Shown here one piece after another: positions 15,669 to 21,425 of a stretch of DNA of 64,000 nucleotides (within the stretch, counting starts at the first letter, position 1; every line of letters starts with the position of its first letter). The notes beneath the pieces are model-generated. The model was given only the letters and a program-made list of their open reading frames with translations, was not told the DNA's origin and made no database searches. The position numbers were made by a program, and so were the translations under genes. The DNA comes from Hydractinia symbiolongicarpus (taxonomy: Eukaryota > Cnidaria > Hydrozoa > Anthoathecata > Hydractiniidae). The stretch is taken from contig NC_079884.1 in assembly GCF_029227915.1 (NCBI RefSeq), forward strand, positions 19,160,001 through 19,224,000, read 5' to 3'.

Positions 15669-16008
15669 TGTAACGTTCTGTAGTTTAAGAATGATCTCAT
15701 CTTTTATATTACAGGTAGCTAGCTAGAAATGTTATATCAACATTTTTCAAAACTTACTTATGACAAATCACAAGATCCCGGATTTAGAAAAATTTAATCT
15801 TGATAAGGCGGACGTCACAAATATTTGGTGTTAGAGTCACCCGACAGACCCTATATTTTTATCCAAATTTTTGATATACTGAGTCGGAAAAGCTAGAGTG
15901 ACAAAAAAAATATTATATGCTCGCTGTCTCCCCACAGCCATCAGTTAGGAAAATCCTACATTTGCGGTATACTCCAATTGCGGTATAAAAATAATCTGAA
16001 AATTTTGT

Positions 16009-16053
16009 CCCGCAATTGCGGGATATACGGGATTCTAATATCCCGCAATTGCG
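16009..16053. repeat. Left subterminal GCAATTGC palindromes
   Basis: CCCGCAATTGCGGG (16009-16022, a perfect 14-bp palindrome) and CGCAATTGCG (16044-16053). A related half site, CCAATTGCGG, lies in the TIR. Candidate binding sites for the element's own proteins (inference). Confidence 0.75.
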
Positions 16054-16086
16054 ATATATCACTTGTTTTATTTTAAAAATGAAAAC

Positions 16087-18739
16087 ATGAAGCGTAGCCT
16101 TAGAAATCCGAAGAAAGATTTTTCAAAAAAATGTAAGTACATTCTGCACAATGATACTGACATCAATGGCAATGGTTGCTACGATATTAGTTCTTCAAAA
16201 AGGTACAAAGCGAGCGTAATTAATGATTTCAAAGAAAAGAAGATATTTCCATTACGAGCGAAATATCTTTGTACAACTTGTTATGAGCGATACAGAAACG
16301 TAGATAAAACGATAGACATGCAAACCACCCAAAAAGAAATAGCTACTACGTCCGTAACTGCAAATGTTCAGGAAACTGTTCCAACACTAGAAACACCTGA
16401 ACTTGCCAAAGAAAATTCAATCGCATACTTATTGCATAACCTCGTTGATAAGTTAGAAAACGAATCCGTAGAAACCTTGCTAAAAGGTAACGAGAACTTA
16501 TGGGCGAATCTTATATTCTTAATCGGCAATAAAATTTGCAATAAGGAAATTTATAAAGACGGTCTAACGATATCAAAAAAATACAAAGATGTCAATTTCC
16601 TGATCCAACAAGATGTAGACCGATACATTAAAGAGCGGAATCGTTTGTTAGTTTTGTTTTTATGTGGAGTAACTGGCTTAGATATGTCCAACACGTCCAC
16701 AGAGAAAAAGATGTCATTTATCAATACTGTTGAAATGTGTTATTATTTAAGAAATTTTCAACTTGTTCTTCCCTTTTCCTTTCTTGGGAACTTTATTCAG
16801 TCATCAATTTCCGGTTCTAAAGTTGTTTCGGTGATGAACGGAAAAACCTCTCCTGGCGGTTGTTATACCACCTTTAAAAACTGGCTATCTGAAAAAGGAG
16901 CGAAACCGCTAACTTGCATTGATGGACCAGTGGATTTATTTTTTGATAACATTGGCAAGTATATCGTAAAGAACTATCGGATTAGCATACTGAAAACGAA
17001 AAGTGCTGATATCATAACGACAGGGATCCAAATAGCACTGACGACGGAAGATCAAAACATACAGAAACGAATTGACTTGAAACCTAGCCGAAGTGCCGAT
17101 GTTAAATCCTCACACAAATTGATGCAATTGGAGATCCAACGCGCCAATGAAGATTTTCGCAAGTTTCGTTTTTGTTTTGTAAAAGAACTTTTTGACTACG
17201 TTGTCATTGGGGACGAATATGACAGGAGCATTGACAATAACATTAAGGTAAATTACTTTGATATGTTTGTTTTAAAAAAGTATGGATTTTATATTTCTAA
17301 CAAGTTGGTTATATTGTAATATTTGAAACTCCTATAATACACCTATATATTTTAATTTTAAGGAAATGTCAGTAAGACGAATCTGCACGAACGAAGCATG
17401 TGGAAAGAAATTTTCGACATTAAATTGAAAATGTGTCTGTGGAAGTGTTGTAGAAGGTGTTTCGAACAATCATACCCCAGTGATGAAGTGTGGAATTAAT
17501 TTGTTGAAAGATGTTGACGTTGGTGCCAAAAAATGCGAACACAAGCCATTGATTCGTATGGTTGAATCGATCATGCTGAATCCGAACAGCTATAAAAATA
17601 TAGAGTCGATATTGATGGAGATGAAAATCATAGCGGAAATCGGGAAAAGTCGAGAATGGGTGTTTTTAGGATGTGATGGTCCTCCGTATTGCCTATCAGA
17701 ACGTATTATTAACAGAGAGGTTGAAAGGTTTGATTTCGCTGCAATGGTACCAGGACTTGGGCATCTTCATATGAATCAACAAAAGACCTTGTTCAAAATT
17801 CTTGATGAAATTATGTTAGAGCCACTTGGAAAAGATGTTTTAAATTTCATTTCGCCAAACGCGTACCAATTTTTTATTAATGCAAAGGATACACACAAAT
17901 CATGGCAAGCGGTCCAAGTCTTGTTATTGGGTACTACTCTTGAGCTTATTAGACAGTACAAACGTGACATTCTTCCGGAAAAAGGAAGCCCTTTTGAGTT
18001 TTTAGAATGGCTTAGTGTGCACGAAAATGCAACACTGAAAATGCTCGGGAACATTATTCTTACTTACATATTGGCAATTTATTTATTTAAGCTTGGCGTT
18101 AGAAATAATGATTGTCAACTGATTACTGCAGCACGGTTGAAATTTGATGACCTATTTTATGCCATATACCGGGAGGTGGAATATCGTGATCTGAAAAACC
18201 GAGCTCTTTATCCAAAAGAGGTCAGGGTTCTGCGTGATAACAACATGTCATTTAGCGAGTCGAAGGTATCTGCAAAAAGTCAAGGAGGTGATTTTATCCT
18301 AGAGGGGAAAGTTAAGCGAGAAAAGCTACTTGCGCCAAAAGGACCTGTTAAAGCATCGACTTGGAAAATGATTGCTCGTTGTTTGGATGAGTTTGATGAC
18401 ATTTATTCAGTTTCGTGTGAGCGTCTTAAGTTGAAAACATGTGATGAGAGTAAGAGTATCGATTTACGGTCAGAGGTATCCAAGTGGCAATCAGTTTTGC
18501 GTTCTTCTTCCTTTTTAAGTAACGAAAATTTTACAGATTCGCCTAAAAATATTTACGGGGAGTTATTATCACCTGATATCGTTAACTTGGCAGAAAACGC
18601 ACGCAAAAAGCGAACCAATATTTGGAAGCAAGTAGAAGAATCTGGTGATATTTGTAATGTAAAAGTAGACTATCTACGCGTTGTGCCTGAAAAGGATATT
18701 CATAATTTACTTTACGTGGAATCTTATGAAGAAGATTGA
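16087..18739 (+). CDS. Putative transposase-like protein (DUF6589-like), two exons, one in-frame stop
   Basis: Exon 1 is 16087-17247 (start MKRSLRNPKK) and exon 2 is 17363-18739, joined by a 115-bp GT-AG intron in phase 0. The total is about 845 codons. Exon 1 begins with a Cys/His cluster (CKYILHND, then YLCTTCYERY), a likely zinc-binding N-terminus. Exon 2 opens with another Cys cluster (CTNEACGKKF and KCVCGS); an in-frame TGA at 17426-17428 separates the two. The C-terminal part has GCDGPPYCLSERI and VPGLGHLHMN, a spacing that recalls the DUF6589 family, whose members have G-D and H-L-x-M-N at similar places. A role as transposase is inferred from its position in the element. It could be inactive, or the TGA could be avoided by different splicing. 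Confidence 0.7.
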
Positions 18740-18783
18740 AATAATAATATTAAACAATATTAGGAACTATACAACTAGAATTG

Positions 18784-19731
18784 TCATTTTTTTGCTGAAA
18801 CTGTCTTTACCCCTTTTTTTTTGCTGGCTGCTTTCGGTGGAGCAGGTGTATGTTCCTGACATGTCCACTTTACCGACTTTATATTACGTGGCATTATCAG
18901 GCCCATACACTTATAATGCTGCCACCGGTCGCAGCCAGTGTGTTCGCAACCAATCCACGATGAGTCATATCGCTTGTCTCTGTCACTATCGTATTCGATA
19001 CCGCAAAGTTGACATACATATTTGAATCTTTTTTTTCTCGCATTTGATGGCGAGTTTTCAGTCAAAAGTTCTATCGACGGCAATGGAGCAACAGCAGCCT
19101 GTGCACCTGAAATCGCTGCTCGGTCATTCAAAAGAACGGGCAGAGTTGCAAATTTTTTGACACAGCAATTGTCTTTGCCATAATCCTTGAAGACTTTTAG
19201 AAACACTTCGTCCCCAGTTGTCATTTTTAAGTCCTGCATTTTCCGTAGCAGCCCATTTGTGTTGTTGTAACGCGATTTTGCCCTAAAGGCGGAGTTTTTC
19301 TGATATTGGGTGCATCTTTTTCCACGTATCTTTACACTCGACAATTTCTTCTTGATTTCTTGCTGGTGCGTTGTTAATTTTCTTCGCTCTAGCTTTATTT
19401 CTCCTTGTTCGCTGTAAATAGTGATGTTGTTGACAGGTTCTTCTTCTTCTTCTTCTTCTTCTTCTTCTTCAATATTTTCAGTTTGAACCTGTTGCTGCTC
19501 ATCAGGAACAGAAGTCCCATTTGAAATATTTGTATGAGTGTTTGTGGAGCGCTGCTGAGTTAAAAAAGTGAATGGTTGAATGGGCGAGGATGCATTAAAA
19601 AATGACGAATTATTAAAATTTGAAATTTCTAACGGGCCGCAATTTCCAATAATGCTTGTGATATCCTTTAACACCGGGAGACTTTCAGATGATTCGTTGG
19701 ATAAATCCAAAGTTGGTTGAAAGGGATCCAT
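18784..19731 (-). CDS. PHD-finger accessory protein of the transposon
   Basis: An intact 315-residue ORF on the minus strand, convergent with the larger gene. The N-terminal 90 residues are Ser/Asn/Thr-rich; residues about 88-98 are a Glu run encoded by a (CTT)n microsatellite at 19438-19470. Then comes a Lys-rich helical region, and at about 238-297 a PHD-type zinc finger: CQLC, GCEHTGC, HYKC and a last pair CQEH, where the usual final Cys is His. It ends in a Lys-rich tail (PPKAASKKKG). PHD fingers often bind histone H3 tails, so chromatin targeting or regulation of the element is a reasonable inference. No intron seen. Confidence 0.8.
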   Translation of the reverse strand: MDPFQPTLDLSNESSESLPVLKDITSIIGNCGPLEISNFNNSSFFNASSPIQPFTFLTQQRSTNTHTNISNGTSVPDEQQQVQTENIEEEEEEEEEEEPVNNITIYSEQGEIKLERRKLTTHQQEIKKKLSSVKIRGKRCTQYQKNSAFRAKSRYNNTNGLLRKMQDLKMTTGDEVFLKVFKDYGKDNCCVKKFATLPVLLNDRAAISGAQAAVAPLPSIELLTENSPSNARKKRFKYVCQLCGIEYDSDRDKRYDSSWIGCEHTGCDRWQHYKCMGLIMPRNIKSVKWTCQEHTPAPPKAASKKKGVKTVSAKK

Positions 19732-20066
19732 TTTGTTGAGTTGATAAGCTATGAAAAAAGCAATTAATTAGCAATTTTTAAACAGGTTATTCCACTTGTG
19801 AACAGTAATGCAAATAAAAGAGACTTACTATCGCAGTCGATCAAGTGTTATTTACCGCTCTAATGACTTCTCTAAGAACACTGAAACAATTTTTCTTAAA
19901 TTTGTTATTTATACATTAGGATTCGAATTTAGAACAGCTGCATTAAAAATCGAACGTCCAAGATTTCTAAGATCATAAGTTGAAGATTTAAAAAATTATA
20001 ATAACACCTGCTGGGGAATTGTAAACTTAAGTTTAACTTAAGACAAAAGTTTCTTTAAAAAATGTA

Positions 20067-20193
20067 TATACTGAAATTGCAGGATATGTACCGCAATTGC
20101 AGTATACCGCAAATTCATATCCTGCAATTGCAGTATACAAACTTTATTCCCACAACGTTCACGCATAGTCTCTTATACTGCAATTGCAGTATA
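20067..20193. repeat. Right subterminal GCAATTGC palindromes
   Basis: At least four copies: near 20067 (CTGAAATTGCAGG, degenerate), 20091 (CCGCAATTGCAG), 20121 (CCTGCAATTGCAG) and 20174-20193 (TATACTGCAATTGCAGTATA, a perfect 20-bp palindrome). They mirror the left-end set. Confidence 0.8.
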
Positions 20194-20575
20194 CAAACGC
20201 GTGATACGTTTTTTTCCCCGCAGGCAAGAATAAAGGTCATAGCCTGGAGCTCCCGATGACATATTTCACTGGATGCGATTTTAGCCATCCAATGCGAAAA
20301 CGAAAAAAACCTTGTTGATGCAAGCCTTCTTGGGCAAGAGCAAAAAATTTTATACCGCAATTGGAGTATACCGCAAATGTAGGATTTTCCTAACTGGCCA
20401 TTACATTATTGTGCTTCGCTTTAAAATGTGAAAAGGGCCATAATGGTGCCCGTTGATGGCTGGATGGTTGGATACAATTTTTCGAATTTTTGAGTTATCA
20501 TTCACCGATCGACTGACCGACTCTATTTTTGGTGCTCAAATGACTCTAACACCAGATATTTGTGTTGTCCGCCTA

Positions 20576-21425
20576 AACAACTTTCTACTCTTCACAACGC
20601 TAGCTAGCTAGCTATAAAATATTATTTTCAATGCCAGGATTACACCTTTTCACAGTTGAGTAAAAATAGGATACCCTTATTTTATCCAACTCAAGTTATC
20701 CGTACAACTATATCATAACAACTATGTGAAGTGAAAACGTGTAGCTATCCCTTCAAGAATATGAGAATATGTTCTTGATTCAAAAAAATTTTTTTATTAA
20801 ACATTTATTTGGATTCAGGTTGTATGGGAAATCCTTTACCCTGGTTACTCTCTTACTGGTGGTGGATGGATTGGGAGATTTCAGCCACTTTTGCTATTTT
20901 CTCTTTCTGACCAGTGTCTAAAAAGCTATAATTTATTTAATAAATAAAAGTCAGCGTAGTTAGAAATGTAAGGAAGAAAGCTCAGCGTCTTCCTAGAGTT
21001 TCTGAACCTAATCAAAAAGTGCTTATGGTATCTACTTCTTCTAACTTGAAAATTAGCTGAGAACGTATACGGTATAGTTCTGCACTACCTCCTCTTTTAT
21101 CTCTCCGCCATCGTCGATGACCAAACAAGAAAGCCTTCTTTGTACGAACCTTCGTGACCTACACATCTTTTGATCAGCAAAGTCGTCCCCAGTCAGCGTT
21201 ATTACTTGTGTCCACAAATCGTTCTGGGTAAACATGTTGTTTCTTTTATTTGCATAAAGTGAAAATATTCATTTTCATGCAGTACGGTGTAAAAAGTATT
21301 TAATAGAGGTCAGGATTTTTTGGGAAATGACATAATTTATAAAATTGATCTGAGGGAAAGATCATGGTGTTGAGCTAGGTCCTAACTTGTTGTGTATTAC
21401 ATGTTGGATATTCTTGGAAAATATA
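20576..21425. other. Gene-poor stretch upstream of the candidate ZDHHC17 first exon
   Basis: Contains a (GCTA)n run at 20602-20614. A 60-codon minus-strand ORF (21235-21053) has no recognisable domain and no clear splice continuation. The 190 bp before 21426 would include the ZDHHC17 promoter if the exon there is real; no TATA box is evident. Confidence 0.35.

Follow-up and report, generated by a model that had tools for sequence, protein, structure and literature searches.

The question raised by this locus is what kind of transposon would carry, tail to tail, a large gene without an assignable transposase signature and a second gene for a PHD-finger protein. The locus lies on contig NC_079884.1 of the hydrozoan Hydractinia symbiolongicarpus, within a stretch of 64,000 nucleotides (C10:19160001-19224000; here, the window), where an element of 4,455 bp occupies positions 15942-20396. 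A sequence-only reading had described it as a near-intact two-gene DNA transposon, and the two-gene reading holds in its ends, its duplications, and its recurrent gene pair. With a probability of roughly 0.7, the element is a decayed autonomous-type cut-and-paste transposon encoding an RNase H-like, probably DDE-type, transposase and an accessory protein that joins a MADS-like domain to a PHD finger. The MADS-like domain, the RNase H-like fold, and the damage to this copy had gone unnoticed in the sequence-only reading.

The pairing of a transposase with a separate PHD-bearing protein is best known from RAG1/RAG2. Finding the same gene layout and 5-bp insertions in another, apparently unrelated lineage would point to repeated origins of such an arrangement, and it makes the need of a transposon for a chromatin-reading partner testable outside immunity.

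Ends, Duplications, and Copies

The two ends form an inverted repeat pair of 49 nt with 100% complementarity and are bordered by an exact GCCAT duplication; length, ends, and duplication were all reconfirmed where they had first been placed (Table 1). The genome (480.9 Mb) was searched with the 66-nt left end of the element as the query. This search, which the sequence-only reading had proposed, recovered 10 ends making up 5 pairs of terminal inverted repeats (TIRs). Each of the five copies is bordered by an exact target-site duplication (TSD) of 5 bp, and all five duplications are different (GCCAT, ATTGT, GAATA, ATGGT, and ATAGC). TIRs with TSDs of fixed length, the mark of a cut-and-paste transposon, are thus found in 5/5 copies, and because the ten ends pair into five and every pair has its own exact duplication, the element is not a product of chance.

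The copies range from 2.1 to 9.4 kb. The four outside the window are each internally deleted and all retain pieces of both genes; therefore, both genes belong to one element. The copy on C5 additionally holds extra DNA. It spans L011 501-9913 (C5:15389681-15399093) and reaches 9.4 kb through about 0.45, 2.8, and 2.8 kb lying between the matching pieces, which are apparently later insertions.

Divergent Relatives and Gene Pairing

The exon 2 protein gives 31 rows against the genome, and those outside the window family correspond to 14 places (L044-L057). In 11 of these 14 divergent loci the partner gene lies convergent beside the large gene, and in all 11 its orientation and adjacency are identical. 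In L044, both genes are open (837 and 345 codons). Along with the pieces of both genes in 4/4 other copies, this shows the two genes travelling together; they were not found travelling apart as a rule.

Exact 5-bp duplications stand beside CAGTYAGG ends in 5/14 loci (Table 1). Both ends were also found in L045, one with a mismatch, between the flanks TCTAC and TCAAC, and the remaining eight loci have one end or none. The independent lineages are fewer than the 14 loci, since some of them are closely related: at the nucleotide level, the transposase genes of L045, L046, and L048 share 95-99% identity with that of L044. Between families, the transposases are 40-55% identical.

The Transposase Gene

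The large gene is laid out in two open reading frames (ORFs) on the + strand (16063-17319 and 17480-18739), which an intron would join. Neither the window pieces nor ten relatives matched a Pfam transposase family at an expectation value (E) up to 1, and the same holds for the relatives P0043, P0045, P0048, and P0049. No curated transposase family was matched by the window pieces or the scanned relatives, in agreement with the view that the protein carries no assignable superfamily signature.

A search for an RNase H-like fold had been suggested, and it was run on the relative P0043. In a VIA structure comparison of the modelled protein, 19 of the top 20 rows were transposases, RAG1, or integrases, with modest Z scores; Foldseek alone returned nothing below E 1. 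The model supports an RNase H-like fold for the large protein as represented by this single relative. The conserved acidic residues are D274, D482, and E694 in P0043 numbering, and E653 is invariant too. The transposase is probably RNase H-like and of the DDE type, with candidate catalytic residues in this acidic set.

The description "near-intact" is generous. Exon 2 is broken by an in-frame TGA at 17426-17428, and the motif FNHP is absent near 18160. This motif is present in P0001, which is 97% identical, and in 8/11 aligned relatives, and 94% of 32 aligned sequences retain its His. Given the in-frame TGA and the missing FNHP, the window copy is very probably dead.

The Partner Gene

The second gene converges on the first across a gap of 44 bp (18740-18783), exactly as had been reported. 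The PHD finger claimed for its product is borne out by PF00628 (E 8.1e-5, 23 bits, one bit below the curated cut-off of 24), which matches 5/7 partner members, and by the presence of the Cys/His pattern. PHD proteins also account for most PDB matches of a whole-partner profile, with EBS, ING2, and MLL1 appearing beside Mcm1 (E 0.0021) and SRF (E 0.0028); RAG2 appears at E 0.45.

The N-terminal half is of another kind. A profile of six N-terminal domains gave four PDB matches at E up to 10, all of them MADS proteins (Mcm1, 0.0027; SRF, 0.013 and 0.020; SEP3, 0.18). The Pfam MADS model PF00319 stayed below its cut-off of 26 bits and reached 2/7 members at E up to 1 (best 15.3 bits, E 0.014). A MADS-like N-terminal half is supported by the profile. 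Its basic KRR is kept in L044-L049, L053, and L056 and is replaced in the window partner, L050, L051, and L052. The resemblance to the MADS factors SRF and Mcm1 extends to the element ends, which carry CArG-like boxes in several families; the partner differs from these factors in that its domain is fused to a PHD finger and borne by a transposon, with the KRR lost in the window family.

Subterminal Boxes

In the window element, counting from either end, the first CAATTG box lies at +33. The two element ends together contain 5 exact 10-bp palindromes, irrespective of sequence, against 1.6 expected, a count reached by 9 of 300 shuffles.

The sequence CC(A/T)6GG is close to the MADS target. CArG-like boxes, scored as this sequence with no more than one mismatch, reach 8.75-12.5 per kb in the outermost 400 bp at each end of L045, L046, L047, L048, and L056; the 64-kb window as a whole has 1.38 per kb, and the transposase genes of those elements have 0.76-2.53 per kb. 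Counted from the ends, these boxes lie at about 33, 51, 74, and 92 bp, partly as a result of TIR mirroring. In the noncoding ends, the observed count was reached by none of 200 shuffles for L046, L047, and L056, by two for L045, and by four for L048. Perfect matches are few (four in L056, one in L047, and none in the other five elements), and CArG-like boxes are frequent outside L047 as well (3.49 per kb). The enrichment is missing from the window family (0 vs 1.7 expected) and from L051 (1 vs 3.0 expected).

Seven elements were tested for both features: the five with KRR all have CArG-like ends, and the two with KRR replaced do not. This co-occurrence suggests, and does not prove, a real link, because the seven elements represent about four lineages. 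A MADS-like domain together with arrays resembling MADS targets on a transposon would provide a route for spreading ready-made regulatory sites.

Proposed Mechanism

The product of the first gene would be a transposase, some 800 aa long, with the CAGTYAGG ends as its cutting sites. By analogy with other cut-and-paste elements, it would bring both ends together, cut the element out, and integrate it with a stagger of 5 bp. The second, tail-to-tail gene would contribute a MADS-like domain for DNA binding and dimerization and a PHD finger. As a dimer, the MADS-like part most probably binds the subterminal boxes, which are CArG-like in several families and of the CAATTG type in the window family, and the box-bound partner would help the transposase to assemble on the ends. 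The PHD finger probably anchors the complex to histone H3 tails, whereby accessible chromatin would be favored.

An undescribed superfamily, with end recognition and target choice placed in a second subunit as an independent parallel to RAG1/RAG2, is a tentative extension of this scheme. It would combine a MADS-type dimer on CArG-like arrays with a histone-reading PHD finger, box sequence and basic region changing together between families. No description of such an element was found in the literature searched. An unnamed lineage in H. symbiolongicarpus is unsurprising, since unclassified repeats are put at 30% of its genome (PMC11067881).

Alternative Explanations

The larger protein had been called DUF6589-like. 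The chances are slightly under even that it and the DUF6589 proteins form one superfamily, in which case the latter would also be transposases and this branch would have gained the MADS-PHD partner. With E 0.1 as the limit, PF20231 matches 6/37 relatives (best E 0.0012), a number that no other family reaches, and the residue order D, D, H, D-x3-E is common to both families. Some hhalign comparisons also place pieces in the same order, namely an N-terminal block, the His of GHLNMN opposite that of WHTK, and GGDFxLE opposite NIEDDLxQE. However, these pieces are not significant (E 0.15-0.36, with 0.16 for one profile-profile comparison; probability under 1%), two other runs are misordered (E 0.18; one of three pairs at E 0.54), and global alignments give no signal. 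The PF20231 scores of 14.0, 14.4, and 17.1 bits compare with a curated cut-off of 27, and none of its 101 rows in the genome is this element. What stands of the label is a weak, repeated, and partly colinear similarity below the cut-off. If the kinship is real, the large DUF6589 family possibly encodes transposases. Several full-length DUF6589 relatives have an N-terminal zf-AD domain, and no relevant paper on DUF6589 was found in the literature searched. The element could instead be a divergent branch of a catalogued superfamily (P, hAT5-like, Transib/RAG-like, or recorded only in Repbase) whose similarity has faded, which we consider possible and somewhat doubtful. The TSD is 8 bp in P elements and in hAT elements, and it is 5 bp here, as in Transib/RAG. 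A 5-bp TSD is also on record for hAT5 (PMC12730594). Besides the Pfam results above, which include no THAP or P-element, hAT dimerization domain or hAT family, or RAG1/Transib match at E up to 1, the PDB sequence search gave five matches at E up to 1 with no transposase among them, and no clear match to a known superfamily emerged. A zinc-ribbon insert between the two Asp and the accessory gene further separate the element from the P element/THAP9 type.

RAG-type ends carry a CAC-type heptamer, unlike the CAGTYAGG ends of this element. RAG1L-RAG2L (RAGL) transposons are described as two tail-to-tail genes for a transposase and a PHD protein, with 5-bp TSDs (PMC7204232). The element likewise has a convergent gene pair, a PHD partner, and a 5-bp TSD; its partner is MADS-like, sequence kinship was not found, and the P element is a better fit than RAG1L-RAG2L. 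Because the Pfam scans gave no kelch or RAG family match and the ends differ, the element is seen as a parallel to RAGL transposons and not as a member, and true kinship is highly improbable. Another reading, which we regard as unlikely, takes the partner as a captured host gene, a passenger that takes no part in transposition. MADS and PHD domains are both commonplace in host chromatin proteins, and the pairing is not strict: the partner gene is not recognized in L054, L055, and L057 (3/14 loci), and of about 22 places found with the partner protein P0044 (34 rows), 13 adjoin a known transposase piece and nine do not. On the other side, orientation and adjacency are constant in 11/11 loci despite the divergence between families, and when the partner is compared with that of L044, the ratio of nonsynonymous to synonymous substitution rates (dN/dS) stays below 1 in each of the eight comparisons, out of nine, that yielded an estimate (0.20-0.71, saturated and rough; none for L049).

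Feature Coordinates and Neighboring Sequences

Table 1: Features of the element in window coordinates and TSDs of divergent loci.
Feature	Position	Strand	Basis or remark
Left target-site duplication GCCAT	15937..15941	.	sequence
Left terminal inverted repeat, 49 bp	15942..15990	+	CAGTTAGGAAAATCC...; ends common to five genomic copies
Left subterminal CAATTG-centred boxes	15973..16055	.	CAATTG at 15975, 16013, 16046; repeat families D1/D2
Transposase exon 1	16087..17247	+	ATG 16087; N-terminal Cys cluster
First conserved Asp, in FFDN (exon 1)	codon 16945-16947	+	alignment; = D274 of P0043, 18/18
Putative intron GT...AG, phase 0	17248..17362	+	predicted; similar-length gap at same place in copy L011
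Transposase exon 2	17363..18739	+	zinc-ribbon Cys, GCDGPPY, GHLHMN, KDTHK, GGDFILE
Second conserved Asp, in GCDGPPY	17675-17677	+	alignment
Candidate Glu, in GGDFILE	18302-18304	+	alignment
Partner gene, 315 aa	18784..19731	-	ORF; convergent with transposase gene
PHD finger of partner	18853..19014	-	PF00628 match and PDB profile matches
MADS/SRF-like domain of partner	19132..19389	-	profile; diverged, KRR of other families replaced
Right subterminal CAATTG-centred boxes	20090..20365	.	CAATTG at 20094, 20125, 20181, 20358
Right terminal inverted repeat, 49 bp	20348..20396	-	repeat search; ends common to five genomic copies
Right target-site duplication GCCAT	20397..20401	.	sequence; exact match to left
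L046 TSD TCTCA, 5 bp			beside CAGTYAGG ends
L047 TSD AATTA, 5 bp			beside CAGTYAGG ends
L048 TSD CAAAT, 5 bp			beside CAGTYAGG ends
L051 TSD TCTAT, 5 bp			beside CAGTYAGG ends
L056 TSD CCCAT, 5 bp			beside CAGTYAGG ends

At L054 2359, a CAGTCAGGG end accompanies a transposase gene, and a partner gene was not recognized. The nine orphan partner-like (MADS/PHD) places are C9:14067790, C4:12880963, C11:27097545, C13:21823294, C13:21853767, C13:16547598, C7:5704759, C1:29768563, and C6:21803991; they are candidates for deletion derivatives or other relatives.

PF20231 is abundant in the genome, where many of its rows are open near 600 codons, and it looks like a separate mobile family. One of these rows (genome C10:19231826-19233169) lies 7.8 kb past the right end of the window. 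Outer inverted repeat arms (53 nt, 79%) enclose the element at window positions 15787-15839 and 20541-20593. Since these further arms lie on either side, the target of the element may have been another palindromic element of about 350 bp.
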